From Fimbriimonadaceae bacterium (GTDB lineage: Bacteria; Armatimonadota; Fimbriimonadia; Fimbriimonadales; Fimbriimonadaceae): DNA of 64,000 bases. Both the position numbers and the translations under genes were made by a program. This document shows positions 2,544-17,089 of this stretch, in pieces. Positions within the stretch are counted from its first letter, which is position 1. The number at the start of each line of letters is the position of its first letter. The notes under the pieces were generated by a model. That model was not told the origin of the DNA. It searched no databases and worked only from the letters and a program-made list of their open reading frames with translations. The stretch is taken from contig JAHCHO010000007.1 in assembly GCA_026129685.1 (NCBI GenBank), forward strand, positions 1 to 64,000, written 5' to 3'.

Positions 2544-3071
2544 ATGTCCACCGAGCTCGCGACCGCTCCGTGCGAAGGCGAACCCGCCATCGCGCCCGAC
2601 CTGTGCTTCCAGCCCTTTCTTCACGAGGTCTCGGGTCTCTGGCTCTACGGCAACGTTCGCCTGCTGTCGAGCGGGCTCGGAACGTCTCCGAGCGCCCGTG
2701 GCCCCTCGTCCTGGGACCGAGCCAACCTCGCTCGCGTCCAGATGGAGGCCGAGATTCTCGTCCTCTCCGGCGGCATCCTCGTGTGCGGCTGTCACAACGA
2801 CGCCCACCGGCTCTCCGCCGTCGTGCCCCTGCGGTACGGCGCGCCCCGCGTTCTCGTCCTGTCGGGGGGCTTTCGTTACCACCTGGGGCCGGAACTCGAT
2901 CGGGAGCCGTTCGCGATCGCCGCGCTTTGGAGGTATCGTTTCGATCCGACGACGGATCTGGCGGTCTCTCGGCGCGCGCCCGACAAGCCGCCCACCTTCG
3001 CCCGCCACAATCCGACGGTGGACCGACTGATCGTCAGGATCGCCTCCGGTTCGCTCGCTACTTTTTTCTGA
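2544..3071 (+). CDS. DprA/SLOG-like Rossmann protein
   Basis: A 175-residue protein preceded by GGGAGGT at a good distance. Residues about 65-110 read '...EAEILVLSGG....G..NDAHRLSAVVPLRYGAPRVLVLSGGF', which resembles the SLOG fold of DprA: an 'SGG' nucleotide loop, a conserved 'D-A-H', then a strand ending in 'VLSGG'. The following 'ALWRYRFDP' and 'SRRAPDK' resemble the later part of small DprA-like proteins on mobile elements. SLOG proteins bind nucleotides or ssDNA. The combination with ArdC suggests an entry or anti-defence role for an integrative element. The family assignment is by eye and moderate. A hypothetical protein of other fold remains possible. Confidence 0.5.
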   Translation: MSTELATAPCEGEPAIAPDLCFQPFLHEVSGLWLYGNVRLLSSGLGTSPSARGPSSWDRANLARVQMEAEILVLSGGILVCGCHNDAHRLSAVVPLRYGAPRVLVLSGGFRYHLGPELDREPFAIAALWRYRFDPTTDLAVSRRAPDKPPTFARHNPTVDRLIVRIASGSLATFF

Positions 3072-3589: not shown

Positions 3590-3741
3590 GGTGCCTCGTC
3601 TCCCGGCTTCGCGCCGAGGGTCTTGGCGCCGAAGTTTTTCACAACCTGGCGGACGCCCAGATCAAGCTGCGCGTGTACCGTCGCTACAACAATGAGGTCC
3701 GTCCACACTCCGCGTTGGGCTATCGCCCGTCGTCGTCGCCC
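3590..3741 (+). pseudogene. IS3-family transposase (OrfB) C-terminal remnant
   Basis: The frame through 3641-3741 reads 'EVFHNLADAQIKLRVYRRYN' and then 'NEVRPHSALGYRPS', the standard C-terminal end of IS3-family OrfB. The catalytic core and any start are missing. It marks the downstream (left) border of the five-gene operon that ends at 3781. Confidence 0.7.
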
Positions 3742-3780
3742 TCTCAACATCAAGCTGGAGAGACTGCGGTTGAAACGTCT

Positions 3781-4953
3781 TCATCGCATGGGCCGGTTAC
3801 TTCGGCATCGGCTTTGGCAACCGCCCGCCGTCAGCGCGACCGAAGGATCACCTTTCCCGCACCGCCATACGGGAGGGACTGCAATCAAGACGTCTTCACC
3901 GGACGGAGCGGGCCAGGACCCCGGGCTGTTCCACCTTCCCTCATCCTGGTCGACGGTCAGCAACAGTGAGGCTGTTGATTCGTTGGCTCCCTTGATAGTT
4001 GCTTTAGCGGAATTGCGCACTTGCGTAGAGCTCGCTGCGTACATCATGCCCCGCGCGCCCTCAAAACCACAGTTGAGCGAGGCAAGGACTTGACCGAACT
4101 TCAGTCCGTCTGCGACGACTTCTGGATGATCTGCGAGCTGTTCGCAAGGCATCCCCAGGTCCATCAACACATCAATCAGCCCGGCGCTGCACCAGTCGCC
4201 GCTACCGGAGGCATCAAGAAGTCTCGGCGCGGAGTATGCGGGAAAGTCCCTCCACGAACTCCGACTAACGCCAGCACAGAACCGCATCCTAAGCCCGCTT
4301 GCTCCGAGTGTTTCTATCTCGATGGGCACTCTATGCTTCTCGACTATATGACCGATACCCCTAAGCCTCTCCTTGGAGTACTTCACTACGTGGGCCGTTT
4401 GGAGACCCTCGCGAAACAACTGTTCGTCCCCGATCCCCGAGGGTTCAAAAAAGACGAGCGCGCCGCGCGCGCGACTCCTCTTGGCGAGCATAAGGGTTCC
4501 AGGAGATGCCCGGTCGAGGTAGAACACCGAATGCTGGGGGAGACTCGCGGCAATGGATGCTGCCTCACTTGCTCGGACGGGCCTGTACGCCGGGAACGAG
4601 GCGCCGCAGACTGGGCAGACGCGTGAGAAGCGGTGGCGCGGGCGCGCTTTCGAATCAAGGTAATTCTCCTGAACGATGATCGGTGTGCCTATTCCAGGCT
4701 CAACATGGAGCAGCTCCGTTCTCACACCCCATGCCGCGAGGTCGGCAAGAAGCTCACTTCCTGGCTGATCATTGCCGATGCGTCCCACGGCGCTCGCAGC
4801 CCAGCCGAAGTAAGCCAGAATCGCAAGCACGTTCCCGCACGAGCCTCCAGCGAAACGCCTCTCGGTCGCGCCAGTTCCGACCGTGTTTCGCACCACGTCG
4901 AGGACGATGAACCCGGTGCCGACACAACTGTGCTGTTGGGCCTCACACGGCAT
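3781..4953 (-). CDS. PfkB-family carbohydrate/nucleoside kinase
   Basis: This 390-residue protein is the fifth and last gene of the island operon. It shows a PfkB layout: a 'GTGFIVLDVV' first strand, the glycine-rich substrate-side signature 'FAGGSCGNVLAILAYFG' (residues 34-50), and the ATP/anion-hole signature DASGSGDWCSAG (247-258) with catalytic Asp253. The family phosphorylates sugars, nucleosides or related metabolites, but the substrate cannot be read from sequence. A CPVCG segment (113-117) is an uncommon insertion. The start at 4953 overlaps the upstream stop by 11 bases. About 85 residues after the kinase domain are low in family-like features and run toward the IS3 remnant, so the natural C-terminus may have been replaced. 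Confidence 0.75.
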   Translation of the reverse strand: MPCEAQQHSCVGTGFIVLDVVRNTVGTGATERRFAGGSCGNVLAILAYFGWAASAVGRIGNDQPGSELLADLAAWGVRTELLHVEPGIGTPIIVQENYLDSKARPRHRFSRVCPVCGASFPAYRPVRASEAASIAASLPQHSVFYLDRASPGTLMLAKRSRARGALVFFEPSGIGDEQLFREGLQTAHVVKYSKERLRGIGHIVEKHRVPIEIETLGASGLRMRFCAGVSRSSWRDFPAYSAPRLLDASGSGDWCSAGLIDVLMDLGMPCEQLADHPEVVADGLKFGQVLASLNCGFEGARGMMYAASSTQVRNSAKATIKGANESTASLLLTVDQDEGRWNSPGSWPAPSGEDVLIAVPPVWRCGKGDPSVALTAGGCQSRCRSNRPMR

Positions 4954-6076
4954 AGCATTCTCCAGAGAGCCACATCGTGAACAGCGTCGGCGGCGTGGCG
5001 GCGCTTGTCGACTCGACGCGGTATCCCTGCGACTCGACGTGGGCAACGCCCACCGTCACCTTCGGATCTCGTCGACCTAACTCGTACGCCGCGAGGAGTA
5101 CGCCCATCGATGCCAGCTTCGAGGACATTGCAGATAGCGCGACTTTGCAGCCACCCAGTGGCTTGAGCGCGCGGTCGTAGTGAAGGATGGACCTCATGAG
5201 CTGGCGGAACACCTCGAAGGGGTTGGACTCGGCGGCGTAGATGATATTGCGCGGCTCCACACGGAGTTGGTCGAAGAGCAGTTCGCGGTACTCAATCATG
5301 ATGGAGTCTCCCTCGCGAGGGTCCTGCGCTGGCGAGGGGAGCAGCGGACAGATCTCGTCAGGCATGACGAACTGGTTGATCCGCTCCAACTGCGCCTGTT
5401 GGCGCTTCCCCAAGACGGGGATCCAGATTATCGGCTGGCCGCTTGTCGAGTCGCTCTGCATGGTTGCCCCTGCAAACCCGAAGAGGTAGCTCGCGCTCTC
5501 CTCGAGTCCCTCCTCGACGATGGCACCGTCGAGCGCGGGAGAGTGCGAGACTATGACGTGGAGATTGCGCTTCTCGCCGTCCATCGCTTCGCCATCGAAC
5601 AGCGCGAGGAGCTTTGCCAAGAGTGGCATGTAGAGGCTCCTAGGCAACGCGCTGATGTCCACGACGACATCGGTATAGGAACGGAACTCAGCCGACGAAG
5701 CGAACTCCTGGGCGATGCTTCGCGCGCCGACTCTGCGGTTGTCATCGGAGAACATCTTGATGTCCCTGTGCCCGATATTGCCGCGTCCCTGAACCAGTTT
5801 CTCGAGTCGCTCGCCATTCGCCTTGCGCTGGGCCAGATAGGTCTGCGACGGCGACTCCGCGCCCTCATCGAACGCAACTAGAGCGACGTCGCGGGTGCCC
5901 TCTCCACCGAGCTTGAGCACCCGTTCGATACCGTCGCACATCCGCACATCGAAGCCATGCCCGATCACGAAGAGCAGGTCCCTCTTCCGCTCGGCCAAGA
6001 ACAGCTTCCAGAACTGATCAAACCCTTCACCATCGCGAAGGAAGTAGTCTCGCCAGCGCAGCGAGTCGGGGCTCAT
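4943..6076 (-). CDS. unknown Rossmann-like protein of the island operon
   Basis: A 377-residue protein whose ATG overlaps the upstream TGA (ATGA). I do not recognise the family. It has alternating hydrophobic strands and loops suggesting a Rossmann-like alpha/beta fold: RDLLFVIGHGFDVR (about 30-43), 'YTDVVVDISALPRSLYMPLL' (about 130-150), 'LHVIVSHSP', and a late 'KVALSAMSSKLASMGVLLA' block followed by 'VTVGVAHVES'. The repeated pattern of two such lobes resembles ligand-sensing or SIR2/CARF-like Rossmann domains, but no catalytic signature is clear. Tight coupling to the ATPase upstream and kinase downstream implies it works in the same complex or pathway. Confidence 0.65.
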   Translation of the reverse strand: MSPDSLRWRDYFLRDGEGFDQFWKLFLAERKRDLLFVIGHGFDVRMCDGIERVLKLGGEGTRDVALVAFDEGAESPSQTYLAQRKANGERLEKLVQGRGNIGHRDIKMFSDDNRRVGARSIAQEFASSAEFRSYTDVVVDISALPRSLYMPLLAKLLALFDGEAMDGEKRNLHVIVSHSPALDGAIVEEGLEESASYLFGFAGATMQSDSTSGQPIIWIPVLGKRQQAQLERINQFVMPDEICPLLPSPAQDPREGDSIMIEYRELLFDQLRVEPRNIIYAAESNPFEVFRQLMRSILHYDRALKPLGGCKVALSAMSSKLASMGVLLAAYELGRRDPKVTVGVAHVESQGYRVESTSAATPPTLFTMWLSGECYAV

Positions 6077-7992
6077 AGCAGCGTCTCCGACTTCGAGGGT
6101 CGGTAGCCCTTTTCCGCCCAAGTGATGAAGTCGCGGAGCGGCTTCTCGCGGAAGCCACCGAACTGCAGCGGCAGCTCGTACTTCGGACAGAGAAGACGAT
6201 TGAGGTAGAGCACCATGTAGCGGTTGCCCTTAACCTTGTAGTCAACCTCCGCGTGCAGGAGGTTGTGAGCGATCGCCGTTCCGAGCATGGACGCGAATGC
6301 AGCTTTCGGTGGGCTCTTCGCTAGGTGTGCGGGGTCGAGAAGCGACTCTCGCTCCTGCATGAGGATCGCGATGCCAGTGACGCCCGGCGAGTACGGAGCG
6401 TTGGGCTGGTGCGTCACATCGCGACAGAACTGACCAACGGCATCCAGGAAGCGAAGCACGTCTCGGCCATTCCTCGCGCGGCGTGGCAGGTCCTTGACGC
6501 GCGTGTCATATGCGCCTTCGAGAATGCGCTGCTGTCGCTCGGGAGCGAGTCGCGGACTGCGTCCCATCACGGCCGCCGCCAGGGACTCCTCGAAAAGGTC
6601 GCCAGCGAGCCGAATGAACTGCTCCACGTTGAAGGATCCGAGGCTCGCGAGCTTGCTCAGGCCGAAGTAGTAGGGGAAGCCAAACTCCTTGCTCAAGAAC
6701 AGTTCGGCCGCAGCGCGAACGTCGGACTCGTCCTTGTCGTCGAGTTCCTCAGTGCTCAGCGGTTCGAGCAGGAGGTCCATCTGCTTCTTCCCCTGTTGTC
6801 GTGCGATCAGTATCTCAAGCGTGCGCCACTTAATGAGCTGGTGGCGAAGCGTGCCCTCAACGTCCGCGCGCGAAGATACCCAGTCAGCGTACTGAGCCTT
6901 GCTGGCCGCAAGGACTTCGACGCGCTTCCGAACGACATCGAGCGCAGCCTGCGTCTTCTCCTGCCACGCAGGTGCATCAAGGTCAGCCTCGATGGTGGGG
7001 GCGAACGCATCCGGCGCGTTGGCGCCCGCCGACTCGGCGGCCATGCGGGCGCGCCGTTCCGCGATGAGCTTCACAGCAGGTTCGAAGCGTCCCTTCTTCC
7101 ACTCGCGCTCGAGGTTGATCACGAGGTGATCCCGACCGCTCAATGCGCCGGAGGCAAGCAACTCGTCCGTGGAGAGCGCCTCGAACCGTTCGGCCAACCA
7201 GACCGTTGACCGCGCGCGCTGGTCGACGACGACTTCGAGCAACGCCGCTCGCTGCGTCGGTGCGAGCTTCTGCATGTCGTCGAAGGTGATAAGCCACTGC
7301 GTCTCGAACGGCTTCCCGTCGAGTTGGATGCAGTTGGCATCGAGCAGCCGTAGCGAGAGCAGCGCATCGTGCCCCGGGGGACCGGCTCCTTCTGGTGACA
7401 TGAGGGTGTCGATGAGATCGGCGACGCCTTGCTCGATGGTCTCGGCCCATCGCTGGACGGCAACACCGTCGCAAGGAACGGACACTCCCGGAACGTGATC
7501 GTCGGGTGGCGCGACGAGTGTCAGACGCGAGAGGTCGTCGGGGAAGCGAAGACCTCGGGCGATGAGGATCGCGCGAAGCGCACCCAGGATGACGCGGGCA
7601 TCGATCAACGCGAGGAGCAGACGCTTGGCGCGCGCAGGCTTCAGTTCCACATCGGCCAAGGCAGGATACGTTCGTGCGCAGGGCAGCATCACCGAGAGCA
7701 CGTTGACGTCGTGGTCAGAGACGGCGCCCAACCCCTTGAGCTTGCCGAGGAGTTCCTTGACCGCGTCGTTGCCCTTCATCGCAACGAGGTGCTGCAGGAC
7801 CGAGGGCGTGAAGAGCTTGAGGAGCGACGTCTTGCCGCCACCGGGCGCGCTTCGGATGAACAGCGGGCGCCCCGTAAGTGCGTTCTCGGGGAGCAGCTCG
7901 AGTACGCCATATCCGAACAGACGCAGGAAGTCCGCGTCTGAGTCGATGCTCTCGGCGGTCTGTAGACGGAAGGGGTTACGGACGTCCTTCAT
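6073..7992 (-). CDS. AAA+/ORC-CDC6-like P-loop ATPase
   Basis: A 639-residue protein starting by ATGA overlap with the upstream gene. The Walker A loop is IRSAPGGGKTSLLKL (Lys54, Thr55) and the Walker B strand is WLITFDDMQKL (Asp238-Asp239), with a long helical C-terminal half. The unusual P-loop (S-A-P-G-G-G-K-T) and the widely spaced Walker B resemble ORC/CDC6- or STAND-type ATPases recorded in bacterial conflict operons with PRTase-like partners (family knowledge from memory, not searched). It could act as the sensor or switch that drives the neighbouring enzymes. No DNA-binding domain is evident by eye. Confidence 0.75.
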   Translation of the reverse strand: MKDVRNPFRLQTAESIDSDADFLRLFGYGVLELLPENALTGRPLFIRSAPGGGKTSLLKLFTPSVLQHLVAMKGNDAVKELLGKLKGLGAVSDHDVNVLSVMLPCARTYPALADVELKPARAKRLLLALIDARVILGALRAILIARGLRFPDDLSRLTLVAPPDDHVPGVSVPCDGVAVQRWAETIEQGVADLIDTLMSPEGAGPPGHDALLSLRLLDANCIQLDGKPFETQWLITFDDMQKLAPTQRAALLEVVVDQRARSTVWLAERFEALSTDELLASGALSGRDHLVINLEREWKKGRFEPAVKLIAERRARMAAESAGANAPDAFAPTIEADLDAPAWQEKTQAALDVVRKRVEVLAASKAQYADWVSSRADVEGTLRHQLIKWRTLEILIARQQGKKQMDLLLEPLSTEELDDKDESDVRAAAELFLSKEFGFPYYFGLSKLASLGSFNVEQFIRLAGDLFEESLAAAVMGRSPRLAPERQQRILEGAYDTRVKDLPRRARNGRDVLRFLDAVGQFCRDVTHQPNAPYSPGVTGIAILMQERESLLDPAHLAKSPPKAAFASMLGTAIAHNLLHAEVDYKVKGNRYMVLYLNRLLCPKYELPLQFGGFREKPLRDFITWAEKGYRPSKSETLL

Positions 7993-9068
7993 GCCTCCCT
8001 CCGGTGGCGACTCACGCGGGGGAACAACGGCTGAACGGCGTCGCTATCTTCCGCCCACAGGACGAAGATGGAGTTGTTCGGGGTGTTGTGGTGGATGACG
8101 AGGGGCAGGCCCCCATCCTTGTAGCCGAAGGGGACATCGCCTCCCCACTCGGGATGCTTCTCCTTCGCGAGTGGGTCGTAGTACTTCTTGATCAGATCGA
8201 TCACCGGCTCGGTCTGGGATGCATTGAGAGAGATTTCGCTCGCGATGCGTTGGACGCACAGCACCGTGATCTCGATGCCATACGTCTTCCTGAGGACGTC
8301 GGCGCCGGTCTCGATGTTGGCCAGCGCCTGCGCGGTCGCGACGTAGAACACGACAACCAGTCGCGTCTTCGGAAACGAGACGACCGACGTCCACTCATCG
8401 GACTGCTGCACCCGATCGACGAACTTAGCGAGTTTGCCTCTGGCCCGATCGCCGTCCGCCGTTAGGCAGCTCGTCCCGCTCGCCGCGAAGTCGTCCAACA
8501 GCACGAGCGCCGGTGCGGCGTCTTTGTGGCCGCGCTTCTCGTCGAGCCACGTTCGGATCTCGTGGACCTTCTCCTTGGAAATCTCGTAGCTGGTGAAGAT
8601 CTGCTCGTGGCTTAGTTCCTTGTTGCTGCGCCTGAAATGGTCGACACGTGCACCATCGCTCAGTCCGAAGAACAGGCTCGATCCCTCAAGCCGCTCGAAG
8701 ACTTCCGTGCCAAGGACCTTGCTGACGCGATACGGATGGAACCCCGAATCCTTCGCAGCCTGCTCCATGAACACCTGTCGAATCACGTCTGGGTACGCGA
8801 TAGCTGTGAAATGAGCCATCTCGGCGTGCGAAAGGAATACGAGCCGACTCAGGACGAACTCATACGCGGCGGTGCGCTCATCCATTGGCTCGAACTGCTC
8901 GATCCACAGCGCTAAGCTCTCCACGAAGCGCATGCCGGGGCTAAACTGCTGGTACTCGTCGTACTTGAGGGCGGCCAGGGCCTGGAGCACTGGCCGTTCT
9001 CGGGCGACGTCCTCGGGCTCCCATGCCATGACGTTCGCGAGCAGGCGTTCCGCGAGTGCGTCTCTCAT
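7989..9068 (-). CDS. phosphoribosyltransferase-like protein (PRTase-CE type)
   Basis: A 359-residue protein whose ATG overlaps the stop of the SIS-HAD gene (ATGA). It has a PRPP-binding signature ALVLLDDFAASGTS (residues 187-200), comparable to the 'VDD..TTG.T' loop of type I phosphoribosyltransferases, preceded by a long N-terminal helical region and followed by a Rossmann-like 'TRLVVVFYVATAQAL'. The paired acidic residues and the G-T of the loop are kept, so PRPP binding is plausible. The substrate is unknown. Its lengthened N-terminus and operon partners fit the PRTase-CE class described in predicted conflict systems. The start 195 bases further upstream lies inside the previous gene and was rejected. 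Confidence 0.7.
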   Translation of the reverse strand: MRDALAERLLANVMAWEPEDVARERPVLQALAALKYDEYQQFSPGMRFVESLALWIEQFEPMDERTAAYEFVLSRLVFLSHAEMAHFTAIAYPDVIRQVFMEQAAKDSGFHPYRVSKVLGTEVFERLEGSSLFFGLSDGARVDHFRRSNKELSHEQIFTSYEISKEKVHEIRTWLDEKRGHKDAAPALVLLDDFAASGTSCLTADGDRARGKLAKFVDRVQQSDEWTSVVSFPKTRLVVVFYVATAQALANIETGADVLRKTYGIEITVLCVQRIASEISLNASQTEPVIDLIKKYYDPLAKEKHPEWGGDVPFGYKDGGLPLVIHHNTPNNSIFVLWAEDSDAVQPLFPRVSRHRREA

Positions 9069-10939
9069 CGCGCCGAGCCCTCTTTCCAGGTGAAGGTGCC
9101 AAGACCGTCGCGAGCCTTGATCGCGCGGAGATAGAGCAGCGTTGCATCTGGACCGGAGACGCCTCGCGGCGCGAGGTTCCAGCACGAGTCGTCCAGGCTG
9201 GAGACCTCGTCGACGCTTAGCGACATCGGTTCGGCGAGCAGCACAAAGTCGTTGCCGGGCCATGCGCCCCGGTCGCCGATAGACAGCACCTCGCGGCCTG
9301 CGCCGATCTGTCTGCGCAGCCAGGTCACAAGCGCGCCCTTGCCAGGCTGAGCACCCAACACGTCAAGCGAGTGTGAGGAGACAACAATGCGCACGCCCAT
9401 ACCATCGAGCGGTGCGAGGCGCGACATCACGTGGGCTGCAAGGGCGTCGTTCCTCGTAGCGCCCTTGGGCTCGACAGTAAGCTGCTTTGGCCTCGGCGTG
9501 ATCTTCGCCGCCGTCGCCAACCAGGCGTCCTCCGACAAGAGCGATTGCGCGCGCTTCAACACGGCGTCGATCGGTTCATCCGTCTTCGGCGAGTCATCAT
9601 CGCCGAGAGTGCCGATGTCCGTCCCATTGTAGTAGCCGATGTGGCAGCGGCCCCAAAGTGCGCGATCGAATACCTTCTGAAGCTCCTGGCGCACCGACTT
9701 CCCTCGGCCAGTAGCGATCCCGAGTTGGAGTCCCGCCTCTAGCAGCCGCGCGCACTCGGCTACGACCTCTTCCGGGAGCCGGTCGAACCGGCGGTCCTTC
9801 GAGCACAGCGTTCCGTCGTAATCAATGGCCACCGCACCGATCTTCACGGTGCGAGCAAGCGCCAGGAACTTCTGGAGCCCCCGTAGGAAGACCCCTCCGT
9901 CGCCAGCGGCTCCCGGCGACGCCCAGAGCTTCCGCTGGATCGGCGCCGCAATGGCCGCTCGCGAACGCGGTGGAGCTAGTCGGTACAGCTTGCGACCGAA
10001 CTCAGGCACGTGTGGGCGACCGGGGTCCTGCACGCGTGTTTCACCCAGGAAATGCACGAGGTTGAACGCTTGGAGGAGCAGATCGACTGTCCCTGCCGGG
10101 CCGTCGAGGGTGGTGTCAAGCCGAACGACCGGGATGCTCTTTGGGATGAGCCTCAGTGTAGGCTCCGCGATGGCGGCGGACCCCGGAGTCACGAGAGCGA
10201 CCACCACTGTCTCGGCTGCCCTCTTCGCCAGCCACAGGTGTCTGCCGTGACCGAAATTCCGGTAGTCAGCGACCTGCGTTGCTGCCAAGGCCGATTCGTT
10301 CAGCTTCGACTCGAGATCAGTTGCGACAGGGGCGCCCCACCCTCCGTGCAGGACCAGCACCATGTGGCGGTCCTCGAAGATCGATCCTTCTAGCCTCTTC
10401 CCCTGCATGTTTGGGATGGACATCTGGTGGCCGTAAGCGCGCGTCATCAGCACGCAGGTTGCGAGGAGACCATTGGTCGCAAGAAAGCCGTCCTTGCCTG
10501 CAGGAGCATCTGACGCGAATACGCGGGCTCGCGCAAAGAGTGTTGCCGCCTCCCCCAAAGGGCTCTTTTCTCGCAAAACAACTACGGCGATTGCGGGCGT
10601 CTCCTCCGCGATGCAGGCATCGAGCGCCGCGAGGATGTCTTTGTTCTTGCCAGAAGCCGAGGCCAGGAAAACACCTGCACGATGGAGCCCGGCGGGTACC
10701 AACAGGATGTCCAGCGGAGTCGTGAACATGGCTGGGCGACCATGACGCTCACGGTGAAGAAGCGAGGTCAGGTGGCATGCCGTTGACGAGCCACCCGAAC
10801 CGATCGCGATGAGCGGTCTATCCGCGACGTCCGCGACGAACTGCTCGAGTGGCCCCACGTTGCAGGACAGGCCCCATTCGACGGTGTCCTCCAGAGCAGC
10901 CAACTCGCTCGCAAACGCCCTACCCAAAGCTGCCTCCAA
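9065..10939 (-). CDS. SIS-domain / HAD phosphatase fusion protein
   Basis: This 624-residue protein is the first gene of the operon. Residues about 25-300 form a double SIS (phosphosugar-binding) domain with GSGGSSTACH (47-56) and a GHGRH loop (229-233). Residues about 365-600 are a Cof-like HAD phosphatase with all four motifs: IDYDGT (Asp373 nucleophile, Asp375), 'IATGRG' (Thr410), Lys534 in 'PGKGAL', and GDRGAWPGND (555-564). It probably binds a phosphosugar and removes a phosphate. The start is a TTG with a weak upstream AAGG. An ATG (10965-10967) begins 'MKKVDQ' 26 bases further upstream, out of frame by one base, so a short N-terminal frameshift is possible. Confidence 0.75.
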   Translation of the reverse strand: MEAALGRAFASELAALEDTVEWGLSCNVGPLEQFVADVADRPLIAIGSGGSSTACHLTSLLHRERHGRPAMFTTPLDILLVPAGLHRAGVFLASASGKNKDILAALDACIAEETPAIAVVVLREKSPLGEAATLFARARVFASDAPAGKDGFLATNGLLATCVLMTRAYGHQMSIPNMQGKRLEGSIFEDRHMVLVLHGGWGAPVATDLESKLNESALAATQVADYRNFGHGRHLWLAKRAAETVVVALVTPGSAAIAEPTLRLIPKSIPVVRLDTTLDGPAGTVDLLLQAFNLVHFLGETRVQDPGRPHVPEFGRKLYRLAPPRSRAAIAAPIQRKLWASPGAAGDGGVFLRGLQKFLALARTVKIGAVAIDYDGTLCSKDRRFDRLPEEVVAECARLLEAGLQLGIATGRGKSVRQELQKVFDRALWGRCHIGYYNGTDIGTLGDDDSPKTDEPIDAVLKRAQSLLSEDAWLATAAKITPRPKQLTVEPKGATRNDALAAHVMSRLAPLDGMGVRIVVSSHSLDVLGAQPGKGALVTWLRRQIGAGREVLSIGDRGAWPGNDFVLLAEPMSLSVDEVSSLDDSCWNLAPRGVSGPDATLLYLRAIKARDGLGTFTWKEGSAR

Positions 10940-11239: not shown

Positions 11240-12240
11240 GCGACACCTGGTGCTCCAAGTGGTTGCCGCCGTCCCGCTCGACAGAGACGAGGGTCTTCGA
11301 GACCAGATGTGCGGGCAAGCGGGAGCGTCCGGGCCGACGGTACGGCCCGGAGGGGCGGCGATCCTGGAACCGCTCTGGGCCGCCACGGGATTCGACCGGT
11401 CGAAGCGGTTGGCAACGTTCCTCCCCTCGCTGATCCCGATGGTCGAGGCGGAGGGGTGTCGGCCCATTCCGGACAGGGCGAAGACCCGACTCTTGAACTA
11501 TCGGTTCCGGCGACCTGCGATCGGTTGCCGCGCCCCGCCCGTCGTTCCGCCGACCGCGCGGTTCGATGCCCGACCAAGCCGGGATCGATGCTCAAAGCCA
11601 GGATCCCGATCCGCACCCGGGCGGACTGGAAGGAGGACGAACCGGGGTACGCCGAGATCGACCTCGTACACCATTGCGGATTCGAAACCTCGGGCGAATA
11701 CCTCCACAGCCTGACGCTCACCGACGTGGCCACCGGATGGACCGAGGGGCGCGCTTTGAGGAACCGGTCCCGGACGAGCTTCCTGGAGGCAATCCGCTCA
11801 ATCCGCGCGAGCCTGCCCTTTCCGCTCAGGGATCTCGATTCGGACTCCGGCGGCGAGTTTCTCAACGAGGCGATGCTTCGGTTCTGCGACGAGGAGGCAT
11901 CCGCTTCACCCGATCCAGACCGTACCGGAAGAACGATCAGCGCCGGGTCGAGCAGAAGAACTGGAGCGTGGTGCGGCAGAGCGTCGGTCACGACCGCCTC
12001 AAGGGAGAAGGGGCGCGGCGGGCTCTGAGCGCTCTGTACCGTTCGCTCGTTCTCCGGGTGAACTTCGTCCAGCCCTGCACGATTCTGGTGGCCAAGGAGC
12101 GGAGCGGATCGCGAGTGAGGAAGATCCACGATTCGGCCAAGAGCCCATGTCGTCGGGTCCTCGACCACCCGGCGGTTCCCGAAGAGCGGAAGACGGCGCT
12201 GCGCGCCCACTGGAGGCGATTCGCCCCATGGCCGTCGCCC
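11240..12240 (+). pseudogene. frameshifted integrase-type transposase
   Basis: Three frames together spell one integrase. The first covers about 11300-11495 (ATGFDRSKRLATFLPSLIP), the second about 11495-11905 (RIPIRTRADW, then PGYAEIDLVHHCG, TLTDVATGWTE and DLDSDSGGEF, which holds the second catalytic Asp), and the third from about 11905 ('RSRPYRKNDQRRVEQKNWSVV'-like, with the catalytic Glu). The block is characteristic of ISNCY/IS-type integrases with a 'VEIDLVAHCG' motif. At least two frameshifts make it non-functional. It borders the five-gene operon on its upstream side, as the IS3 remnant does on the other. Confidence 0.75.
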
Positions 12241-13091: not shown

Positions 13092-14501
13092 ATGACCGAT
13101 ACTCACGATTCTCTGTCGGCCGAAGCCGTTCGCGAACTTCGCGAACTCCTGACGGGTAAGGCCCATCTCCCCGGGGACGCCGACTTCGGCAACGCCGCCT
13201 TCGCCTGGAACGTCGCGATCGAACACCGTCCCTTGATCGTGGTCGACGCCGTTTCCGAGGGCGACGTCCTCGAAGCGGTGCGATTCGCCAACGCACACGA
13301 TCTCGGAATCGCCGTCCAAGCCACCGGCCACGGACAGCCGCGCCCGTGCCACCACGCGATGCTGATTCGGACCGGAAGGATGGACGCGGTGGCGATCGAC
13401 CCGGTCGCGAAGACGGCCCGCTTCGGCGCGGGCGCGGCCTGGGGACGCATCAACGATGCGGCCGGTGAACACGGCCTCGCGGGCGTCTCGGGCTCCTCAC
13501 CGAACGTCGGCGCCCTCGGATACCTGATGGGTGGCGGACTCGGGCTGATGTCGCGACGACACGGGCTCGGGGTCGATCGCGTCCTCCGCTTCAGGGTCGT
13601 CACCGCCCAAGGAGAGGCCGTGACGGCGAGCCGGGAAGAGAACCCTGACCTGTTTTGGGCGATCCGAGGCGGCGGCGGGTCGTTCGGCGTCGTGACGGAG
13701 GTCGAGATCGAGTTGATCGAGGTTCCCGAGTTCTACGGCGGTGCGGCCTTCTGGTCGGTGGAACGCGCCGAGTCGGTGTTTCCCGCTTACGCGGCGTGGG
13801 CGGCAACCCTTCCCGACGCCATGTCGACCAGCCTCCACGCCATCAACTTCCCGCCGGTGCCGTTCGTGCCCGAACCTCTGCGGGGACGTTCGATGGTCTA
13901 CGTGACGGCCGCCTTCGTGGGTCCCGCCGAAGAAGCCGAGCGGCTGCTCGCTCCATTGCGCGGTTGGGAGGGATTCGAGTTCGACACGTACCACCCCATG
14001 CCTTACCGCGAATCGGCCTGCGTCCACAACGACCCGGTCGATCCCCTGCCCGTCAGCGGAAGCGGACGCCTGCTCCGGTCGTTCACCCCGGACGAGGCCC
14101 TCGAACTCGCCCGGGCGATTTCACCGTTCGCCTCCTCGCCGCACCTCATGCTCCAGGTTCGGCACCTCCAGGGTGCGATCGCCCGGGTGGATCGGGAGGA
14201 CTCGCCGGTCGGCCCGACCCGCGAGGCACCCTTCGTCCTGCACATGCTCGGAGTCCCAACGCCGCACAACCCGCCCGAGGGCATCGAGGCCAACGCCCAG
14301 CGCGTGTTCGCGGAGATTCGGTCGTTCGTGCTCCAACCCGGCCCGATCAACTGGGTCGGTGAGGGTGGCGTCTCGGCGGAAACGATGCGCGCCGTCTTCA
14401 CCGACGACGATTGGGACCGGCTCCTGGAGATCAAGTCGCGGCACGACCCCAAAAACCGCTTCCGGTTCGCGGGAATCGGCCTGGTGGTGGACGCCTCCTA
14501 A
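13092..14501 (+). CDS. FAD-linked oxidase (berberine-bridge-like, PCMH)
   Basis: A 469-residue protein with a PCMH-type FAD-binding domain. It shows RPLIVVDAVSEGDVLEAVRF (about 40-60), an 'ATGHG' pyrophosphate loop (about 79-83), 'GAGAAWGRIND', and GALGYLMGGGLGLMSRRHG (about 140-160). The C-terminal KNRFRFAGIG end is typical of the berberine-bridge family. The histidine of the usual flavinylation site is visible in GHG. It oxidises an unknown alcohol or sugar-like substrate. AAGGAACACCG precedes the ATG. It follows the VOC gene on the same strand. Confidence 0.8.
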   Translation: MTDTHDSLSAEAVRELRELLTGKAHLPGDADFGNAAFAWNVAIEHRPLIVVDAVSEGDVLEAVRFANAHDLGIAVQATGHGQPRPCHHAMLIRTGRMDAVAIDPVAKTARFGAGAAWGRINDAAGEHGLAGVSGSSPNVGALGYLMGGGLGLMSRRHGLGVDRVLRFRVVTAQGEAVTASREENPDLFWAIRGGGGSFGVVTEVEIELIEVPEFYGGAAFWSVERAESVFPAYAAWAATLPDAMSTSLHAINFPPVPFVPEPLRGRSMVYVTAAFVGPAEEAERLLAPLRGWEGFEFDTYHPMPYRESACVHNDPVDPLPVSGSGRLLRSFTPDEALELARAISPFASSPHLMLQVRHLQGAIARVDREDSPVGPTREAPFVLHMLGVPTPHNPPEGIEANAQRVFAEIRSFVLQPGPINWVGEGGVSAETMRAVFTDDDWDRLLEIKSRHDPKNRFRFAGIGLVVDAS

Positions 14502-14636
14502 CGCCGCTCCCTTTGGAGCGGGATGAGCCTGTCGGCCCACTTCTGGGCCGACAAACCAACCTGCCACCCGCGACCACCGCGACTCAGTTTGCTCCCCGAA
14601 GGAGCGAACTGGCGAGCCGACGAAGAAGTGGCTGGA

Positions 14637-17089
14637 ATGTTGCCCATCGGCGCTGCTCTCCTGATCCACATCCTGGTACCCCGCCCGGTTGCGGTACCGG
14701 CGCAGGATTCCCCGTCCACGACGCGGTGCGCCCGCGAGACGCTCTCCCTCGACTCTGGCTGGTGGTTTCACGAGGGAGACATCCCCCATCGCGACTTTCG
14801 GCCGAACGGCGATGAGGCGGAGGGTGGCAGCAAGGGGGCCAGCGCCTGGGGTGCGGCCGCCCCAAGCTTCGATCACCGGTCCTGGACGAAGTTCGACCTC
14901 CCCCACGACTGGGTCCTCGAGCAACCCTTCATCGAGAGCGCGGTGCGCTCCCAAGGCTATCGACCGAGAGGCATCGCTTGGTACCGAAGGCAGTTCAGAC
15001 TGCCCGAATCGGACCGGTCGAAGCGGCTCGAGCTCCAGTTCGACGGAGTATCGACCCACTGCACCGTCTGGTTCAACGGCTCGGTCGTCTATCGAAGCTG
15101 GAACGGGTACCGGTCGTTCTCCATCGACATCACGCCGCTGGCCCGCTTTGGCGACGACACCAATACGATCGCCGTGCGCGACGATGCCCAGGCGATGGAG
15201 GGATGGTGGTACGAGGGAGGAGGCATCTACCGCCACACGTGGCTTGTCAAGCGACCTCCGATGCACATCGTTGGCGACGGCGTCGACGCCAGACCCGTCA
15301 AGGCGGCAGACGGGAGGTGGTCGGTCCCGGTAGAGACGACCCTGATCAACGACTCCGGGTCGGACGCCGAGGCCTTGATCGAGGCAACCCTGCACGGCCC
15401 CGACGGCAAGAGGGTCACCTCGGCCAAGGTGCGACGGAAAGTGATCCCTGGGAGACGGTGACGGCCGGCCTCACCTGCCGAGTGAAAAAACCGGCGCTGT
15501 GGGACGTCGAGAACCCGGCCGTCTACGTGCTGACGGTCAGGGTCACGAGCGACGGACTTACGGACGAGGCGAGCACCAACCTCGGATTCCGCGCCATCCG
15601 CTTCGATCCCGACCAGGGCTTCTTTCTGAACGGGAAGCCCCTTAGGATCAAAGGAGTGTGCTGCCATCAAGACCACGCGGGCGTCGGAGTCGCGGTACCG
15701 GACTCTCTCCTCGAATTCCGCATTAAGAAGCTCAAGGAAATGGGCGCCAACGCCTACCGGAGCGCTCACAACCCGCCCTCGAAAGAACTCCTGGACGTCT
15801 GTGACCGCTTGGGCATGATGGTGATGGATGAAACGCGCCACTTCAACGGGTCGCAAGACTCGCTGAGCGACTTGGAGTGGCTCGTGCGGCGCGACAGAAA
15901 CCACCCATCCGTGATTCTTTGGTCGCTCTTTAACGAAGAGAACGCGCTTCAAGGCAACGAGCAGGGCCGCGCGATCGCGAAGCGAATGGTAGCCGCCGTC
16001 AAGCGCTTGGACAAGACGCGGCCCGTAACCGGCGCACAGAACGGCGGCCACGTCGTCGACGGCAAACTCAACCCAAACAGCGTCGCCCTGGAACTCGACG
16101 TCGTCGGGATCAACTACCAAGTGGATCGTTACGACGAGATACGCGCCGCCTATCCGCGCAAACCCATCCTTAGCACCGAGGACACCTCGCAAGTCATGAC
16201 ACGAGGCGTGTTCGTCACCGACTGGAACAAGCTGATGTTGGCTTCCTACGATGACAAGTACCCAGGCTGGGCGTCGGACAATCGCGGCGCGTGGGAGGCC
16301 ATTGCCCGCCAACCCACGTTTGCGGGAGGGTTCATCTGGACCGGCTTCGACTATCGAGGAGAGCCGTCGCCTTTCGGGTGGCCCGCCGTCAGTTCCTATT
16401 TCGGCTGCATGGATACCTGTGGGTTTCCGAAGACGGCCTTCTATCTTCGCCAAGCCTTGTGGGTGACCAACCGTCCAATTCTGGCCCTTGTTCCCCATTG
16501 GAACTGGCCGGGGTGGGAGGGTCAGCCGCTCAGAGTCATGGCGATCACCAACGCCGAATCCGTTCTTCTCTCGCTAAACGGAAGGGACCTAGGAGAGAAG
16601 CGAGTGGACCCGTACCGAATGGTCGAGTGGCAAGTCCCCTATGCCGCCGGACGGCTGGAAGCGGTGGCCAAGGTTGGGGACCGGGTCACCGCAAGGGTAT
16701 CCGTCGAGACCACGGGACCACCCGTCGCGCTCAGGCTTAGTCCCGACCGAAACACCATCCGAGGGGACGGTCGAGATGCGATTCCCGTCACGGTCGAAGC
16801 CTTGGACGCATCGGGCCGTCCGGTTCCTACGGCAGACCCGCCCATCGAGTTTGAGCTGTCTGGACCAGGCAGAATCCTTGGGCTTGGGAACGGGGACCCC
16901 ACCAGCCACGAGCCCGAGGTGGGTCGCCAACGCAGGCTCTTCAACGGATTGGCTCAGGTGATCCTCCAAACGACAGCGGGAACGTCGGGCAAACTTACAC
17001 TGAGAGCGACGGCGGCGGGGCTTGCCCCAGCGACGACGACCATCCAGGTGCGAACGGCGGTCGCCCCGCCGTCGGTGCCGGCGCTTTAG
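14637..17089 (+). pseudogene. GH2 beta-galactosidase-like enzyme split by a one-base frameshift
   Basis: Two overlapping frames encode one glycoside hydrolase family 2 protein of about 815 residues. The first (from 14637, with a signal-peptide-like LPIGAALLIHILVP start) holds the sugar-binding and immunoglobulin-like domains (FDLPHDWV, GIAWYRRQF, EGGGIYRHTWL). The second holds the TIM barrel with LRIKGVCCHQDHAG, 'GANAYRSAHNPPS', HPSVILWSLFNEEN (acid/base Glu) and PILSTEDTS. The break is at GGG 15450-15452: one extra G there restores the reading 'KVIPGETVTAGL'. This may be a real inactivating mutation or an assembly error in a homopolymer. Neighbours suggest polysaccharide use. Confidence 0.75.

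Follow-up and report, generated by a model that had tools for sequence, protein, structure and literature searches.

A mobile five-gene operon joining a tandem CARF protein, an ORC-CDC6-like ATPase and a PRTase-CE to a SIS-HAD phosphatase and a PfkB kinase: a candidate nucleotide-depleting defence system

Why should a phosphosugar-type phosphatase and a sugar kinase be encoded in one overlapping run with a phosphoribosyltransferase-like protein, an AAA+ ATPase and a fifth protein that an earlier note had left without any recognised family? The question is raised by five genes on the minus strand of the 64,000-nucleotide stretch of Fimbriimonadaceae DNA analysed here, which we call the window. 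All five reading frames are open, and they follow one another in the order SIS-HAD, PRTase-CE, ATPase, CARF6 and PfkB.

Layout and products of the operon

The features to which we refer, in window coordinates, are the following.

11309..12028, plus strand: upstream border, degenerate remnant of an rve transposase (PF00665, 1.2e-5)
10933..10937, minus strand: GGAGG, Shine-Dalgarno-like site of gene 1; homology of the cassette to its relatives starts here (boundary 10937)
9065..10927, minus strand: gene 1, SIS-HAD, 620 aa, TTG start; double SIS N-terminal part and HAD-IIB C-terminal part
7989..9068, minus strand: gene 2, PRTase-CE, predicted nucleotide-targeting effector (PF24390, PADLOC, invariant motifs)
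6073..7992, minus strand: gene 3, ORC-CDC6-like AAA+ ATPase (PF24389, Walker A and Walker B)
4943..6076, minus strand: gene 4, CARF6, a tandem CARF protein predicted to sense nucleotides and bearing no fused effector (PDLC01910, fold)
5639..5659, minus strand: predicted ligand motif D140-I-S-A-L-P-R146 of CARF domain 1, matching the published signature
3781..4953, minus strand: gene 5, PfkB/ribokinase-family kinase (PF00294), catalytic core intact and 3' tail altered
3600..4036, plus strand: downstream border, resembling by eye an IS3-type transposase end (homology boundary 4037)

Consecutive genes overlap by 4 nt at the SIS-HAD/PRTase (ATGA, 9068-9065), PRTase/ATPase (7992-7989) and ATPase/CARF (6076-6073) junctions and by 11 nt between CARF and PfkB (4953-4943), just as the earlier note had read them. 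Its view of the run as one translational unit is further supported by similar short overlaps in relatives, where the HAD-PRT gap is -4 in 44/61 loci and the CARF-PfkB gap is -11 or -4 in 33/67. Translation of SIS-HAD most likely begins at the TTG at 10927 rather than at 10939, because GGAGG precedes that TTG by 5 nt and the same codon serves close relatives as GTG or ATG. Scanning for a promoter or terminator upstream of the operon found none.

The surroundings were only partly as first described. Two transposase remnants had been proposed as flanks: the rve remnant stands on a Pfam match, and the downstream one shows its IS3-type resemblance by eye, a Pfam search at 3623-4093 giving no match. 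Beyond it, an intact-looking ArdC-type antirestriction protein with ArdcN and MPTase-PolyVal zincin domains (Pfam) is encoded on the plus strand at 1412-2398, as had been claimed; for the supposed SLOG neighbour at 2544-3071 no match to a SLOG family was found.

Family profiles uphold the identities first proposed for SIS-HAD, PRTase-CE, the ORC/CDC6-like protein and PfkB. The PRTase-CE matches PF24390 at 1e-22 (81.7 bits, above the curated cut-off of 27), the PADLOC retron III-A PRTase at 1.5e-18 and, weakly, an NCBIfam anti-phage equivalog. It carries a DDFxASGTS PRPP-type loop and an HNxPNN motif, and D192, D193, H327 and N328 are unchanged in 77/77 sequences; it is most likely the effector of the operon, with a predicted attack on nucleotides. 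The ATPase matches PF24389 at 5.7e-18 (65.4 bits, again above a curated cut-off of 27), to which the window protein aligns over residues 230-610 only and which 43/45 of its homologues match. Its Walker A (PGGGKT) and Walker B (FDD) motifs are well preserved, with K54 kept in 81/82 and D238 in 82/82. A sequence search of the PDB with the CARF, ATPase and PRTase profiles returned no useful match.

The two remaining enzymes bear the marks of sugar-phosphate chemistry. In SIS-HAD, the N-terminal double SIS is NagB-II/GlmS-like (PDB profile matches 8eol/3hba), its conserved E211 and H227-G228 aligning by HMM with the KLKE and HGP motifs of NagB-II/GlmS-type isomerases, and the C-terminal part is a HAD-IIB phosphatase by profiles (PDB profile match 4qjb) with all catalytic motifs in place, D369, D371, K530, D552 and D560 being unchanged in 78/78. 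Its AF2 model has a pLDDT of 93.5 and 8fdb as best Foldseek match (TMt 0.72). PfkB matches PF00294 at 3e-10, is nearest to fructokinases among known structures (best PDB match 5ey7, 1.3e-20) and has kept D253 in 84/84. Its window copy ends differently from those of close relatives: the C-x2-C tail that they possess is missing, and unrelated sequence has taken the place of the 3' end from about 4037 down to 3781, at the insertion border. The border at 4037 has deprived PfkB of its last part, leaving the kinase core intact, and the window copy of the operon may be impaired in this enzyme. An internal CPxCG is also missing from some other PfkB members, so the cysteine tail may be a dispensable zinc site.

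Gene 4 proved to have a family after all. It matches the PADLOC CARF6 profile PDLC01910 at 5e-110, and all of its homologues examined (70/70) match CARF6 profiles. The structure prediction that the earlier note had suggested yielded an AF2 model of pLDDT 94.5, for which VIA-align ranks 1-20 are all CARF or SAVED proteins (Z 15.3 to 8.4, the first other fold following at Z 7.9); the best match is 6sce (Z 15.3, rmsd 3.0 over 232 residues) and the nearest folds are Can1 and Csm6. Input alignments for the structure models were free of plasmid-derived rows. Plain Foldseek had placed chloride-transporter domains at the top; these superpose poorly (TM 0.26) and were set aside in favour of the CARF/SAVED matches of VIA-align. 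A CARF signature [DN]X[ST]XXX[RK] has been described after strand 4 (PMC4012209), which D140-I-S142-A-L-P-R146 of domain 1 fits, D140 and S142 being present in 87/87 sequences and R146 in 61/87; domain 2 has the variant S315-x3-S319-K320. By profile and modelled fold, gene 4 is therefore a tandem CARF protein and a predicted nucleotide sensor. It is this protein, rather than the ATPase to which the role had first been given, that is the natural candidate for sensing a small molecule.

Conservation, modules and mobility

Relatives were collected by scanning a CARF alignment against 84,980 species genomes, which gave 131. The 89 scored loci are the best 80 of these 131, together with the window, seven loci from plasmids and one from an additional genome. 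All five genes occur together in 79/89 loci across many phyla (78 whole and one with a broken PRTase frame); eight of the remaining ten are situated at contig ends and the other two look decayed, judging from coordinates. The order HAD-PRT-ATPase-CARF-PfkB is found at 60 loci and HAD-PfkB-PRT-ATPase-CARF at 14, with a NADAR and an HTH gene in between in several alphaproteobacteria, while two Actinobacteria have PRT-ATPase-CARF-HAD-PfkB. The earlier note had wished to see gene order surveyed and would have yielded to homologues occurring only as single metabolic genes or to an order conserved nowhere; the survey clearly found a recurrent unit, whose order in distant genomes is nearly always one of two. 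In each of the four enzymes the catalytic residues are fully or almost fully conserved.

Because the 89 loci had been chosen by CARF, an independent test was run on plasmids. With tblastn against 72,556 plasmid records, the CARF query found 17, SIS-HAD 18, PRTase 19 and ATPase 17, and the same 17 are common to all four, which argues that a SIS-HAD of the operon type is not a free-standing metabolic gene.

Some variants deserve mention. A NADAR gene, of an N-glycosidase family, lies beside the cassette in several proteobacteria (L005, L008, L010, L048, L051, L056, L060, L093 and L165). On a contig labelled as a Nitrosopumilus MAG, a broken CARF6 accompanies a PfkB of the operon type (L069), possibly an archaeal relic or a binning error. 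A plasmid of Rhizobium tumorigenes (L093) carries a patatin-like phospholipase gene at 13374-14999, between two PRTase-ATPase-CARF triplets.

The unit is made of two co-evolving modules, {SIS-HAD, PfkB} and {PRTase-CE, ATPase, CARF6}. Over 66 loci, pairwise distances correlate at 0.905 for HAD against PfkB and at 0.91-0.94 among PRTase, ATPase and CARF, and only at 0.50-0.65 between the two groups. Two rhizobial plasmids each hold two PRTase-ATPase-CARF triplets and a single HAD-PfkB pair, which suggests that the pair acts in trans; its function is probably a shared, diffusible one.

Related loci, drawn by PF24389 from three phyla and read out, include five-gene ones and otherwise show the ORC-CDC6-like ATPase and CARF6 in other company: with HD-CE and a C5 DNA methyltransferase (L138, L139, L140, L162, L164), with PRTase-CE and an N6/N4-type methyltransferase (L137, L161, L168), or with a calcineurin-like phosphoesterase, a metallophosphatase (L163, L169, L170). 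Judged from these gene contents, the effector of ORC-CARF6 loci is exchangeable. In some related loci the ATPase is fused to a protein-kinase-like domain; at L171 (5560-9267), beside an N6-type DNA methyltransferase, a protein of 1236 residues unites such a domain with an ORC-CDC6-like ATPase and a CARF6-like region. Loci that have SIS-HAD and PfkB lack the methyltransferase, and the pair holds its place: the five-gene cassette has no methyltransferase gene, and matches to methyltransferase profiles are few in a set of 129 flank proteins. In FastTree trees the five-gene members form one clade, both for the ATPase (support 0.975) and for CARF6 (support 0.73), and since each groups as one clade, a single acquisition of the pair fits.

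The mobile, island-like setting first proposed for the operon agrees with its sharp homology borders and with the defence genes that adjoin some copies. DNA identity to one relative (L011) is 83.6% and is confined to 10937-4037, so that the flanks do not travel with the cassette. Its nearest relatives (81-92% CARF identity) are in genomes labelled Myxococcales, Corallococcus and Deltaproteobacteria, and within the phylum of the window its presence is sporadic (2/291 genomes). Phage integrases, TniB, type I restriction, GajB and Fic genes are present as neighbours at other loci, an observation of presence and not of enrichment. A search of phage genomes for CARF6 and SIS-HAD found neither; two loci are present in a viral-contig collection, and one of them has the full set of five genes.

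A proposed mechanism and its alternatives

We give about even chances to a reading in which the operon is one mobile, nucleotide-depleting system of the defence type, whose SIS-HAD and PfkB control a small molecule that gates the CARF6-ATPase-PRTase triplet. The tandem CARF6 protein would bind a nucleotide-like ligand, and the ORC/CDC6-like AAA+ ATPase, which probably touches DNA, would serve as the switch. Once released, PRTase-CE would attack cellular nucleotides, leading to dormancy or death of the infected cell. The PfkB kinase and the SIS-HAD phosphatase, with its phosphosugar-binding isomerase-type domain, would determine how much of a sugar-phosphate or nucleoside-phosphate compound is present, and this compound would gate the triplet, in whichever direction control is presumed to run. 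Neither a cyclase nor any other obvious producer of a CARF ligand is encoded in the operon, a point that counts against this reading, and the kinase and phosphatase are then the best candidates for source or sink of the ligand. Further points against it are that PfkB is not recognisable within reach at one locus (L165), which has NADAR instead, that the PfkB of the window copy may be impaired, and that the methyltransferase-linked PRTase-CE does without HAD and PfkB, which makes any direct chemical connection of the PRTase with the pair conjectural.

The pair could also act after the effector, as a clean-up or immunity device converting the ribose-phosphate or toxic phosphosugar freed by PRTase-CE and thereby sparing uninfected cells. 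A SIS of the NagB-II/GlmS phosphosugar type and a fructokinase-like PfkB, both with preserved active sites, would suit such a task; one pair can serve two triplets in the manner of an antidote, and the NADAR N-glycosidase gene is a recurrent neighbour. However, where PRTase-CE, ORC and CARF6 occur with a DNA methyltransferase the pair is absent, so it is not a general requirement of the effector. Its replacement of that methyltransferase suggests a place on the triggering side rather than in effector chemistry, which speaks, though not decisively, against a clean-up role that we regard as possible but doubtful. Sugar-nucleotide salvage or another metabolic or stress function, with no role against invaders, could be argued from three of the five genes, which belong to enzyme families of sugar and nucleotide metabolism. 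Such a function accords poorly with a patchy, horizontally moved cassette of sharp homology borders and phylum-wide scatter, and with CARF6 and ORC-CDC6-like proteins whose partners elsewhere are DNA methyltransferases and effectors predicted to degrade nucleotides; we find it improbable. Very improbable, in our judgement, is that CARF6 answers cyclic oligoadenylate from a type III CRISPR system of the same cell, the operon being its accessory effector. The nearest folds of CARF6, Can1 and Csm6, invite the idea, and the window's genome has two Cas10-like genes with strong Cas10/Cmr2 palm matches (G000 C11:42987-43367 and C15:219605-220000), but these lie on other contigs, and strong Cas10 matches occur in only 7/51 host genomes, none being strong in the other 44/51. 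Strong here means E < 1e-10; weak matches were ignored, the Pfam model also matching in E. coli.

A bolder reading, which we hold to be rather unlikely, is that SIS-HAD and PfkB took over the job of the methyltransferase. Sugar-decorated or otherwise modified nucleotides of the invader, or a matching host metabolite, would be turned into the CARF6 ligand, and self would be told from non-self by metabolite chemistry instead of DNA methylation, while CARF signalling would proceed without a cyclase. CARF proteins are best known as receptors of cyclic oligonucleotides. In the operon, members of one CARF family go together, across many phyla, with a sugar-phosphate-type kinase and phosphatase and with a predicted nucleotide-attacking PRTase, and a cyclase is absent. 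Should the pair turn out to make or remove the CARF ligand, bacterial immunity would include a new signalling chemistry, one that is directly testable, all parts lying within one seven-kilobase cassette.

Relation to known systems

Several components have been met before. PF24390, PF24389 and PF24391 are presumably named after domains of the Nicastro et al. 2023 study, which is said to treat PRTase-CE / ORC-CDC6-like systems, and the CARF6 family as used in PADLOC reportedly goes back to Makarova et al. 2020. PADLOC 2.0.0 has no match for the SIS-HAD, PfkB or ORC-CDC6-like partners, and we found no description of the five-gene unit in PADLOC or in the literature searched, where the passages searched of Kaur 2020, BREX 2026 and the EVE/DCD work do not mention it. 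The earlier computational work that named the domains may already list this arrangement.

Type III retrons use PRTase-CE relatives as effectors (PMC12548924), and the PRTase of type III-A retrons shares its superfamily with that of the operon. Their partner is a reverse transcriptase, whereas the operon has none and its switch would be the ORC/CDC6-like ATPase with CARF6; in complete loci no retron reverse transcriptase lies beside the PRTase, whose neighbours are SIS-HAD or PfkB (or HTH/NADAR) and the ATPase. Can1 of type III CRISPR and the SAVED proteins of CBASS have, like CARF6 of the operon, two CARF-like domains per chain, but CARF6 differs from them in having neither a fused nuclease nor a linked cyclase. 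BREX combines an ORC/Cdc6-clade ATPase, BrxC, with a DNA methyltransferase (PMC12839542); its ATPase family is different from ours, and the operon has no PglZ or BrxX.

Also close in composition are the methyltransferase-linked loci (L137-L140, L162, L168), with the same ATPase family, CARF6 family and effector-ATPase-CARF order and in part also PRTase-CE. Unlike the five-gene operon, they have their own DNA methyltransferase and neither SIS-HAD nor PfkB, and these sister loci, with the methyltransferase in the place of the pair, provide a built-in comparison.
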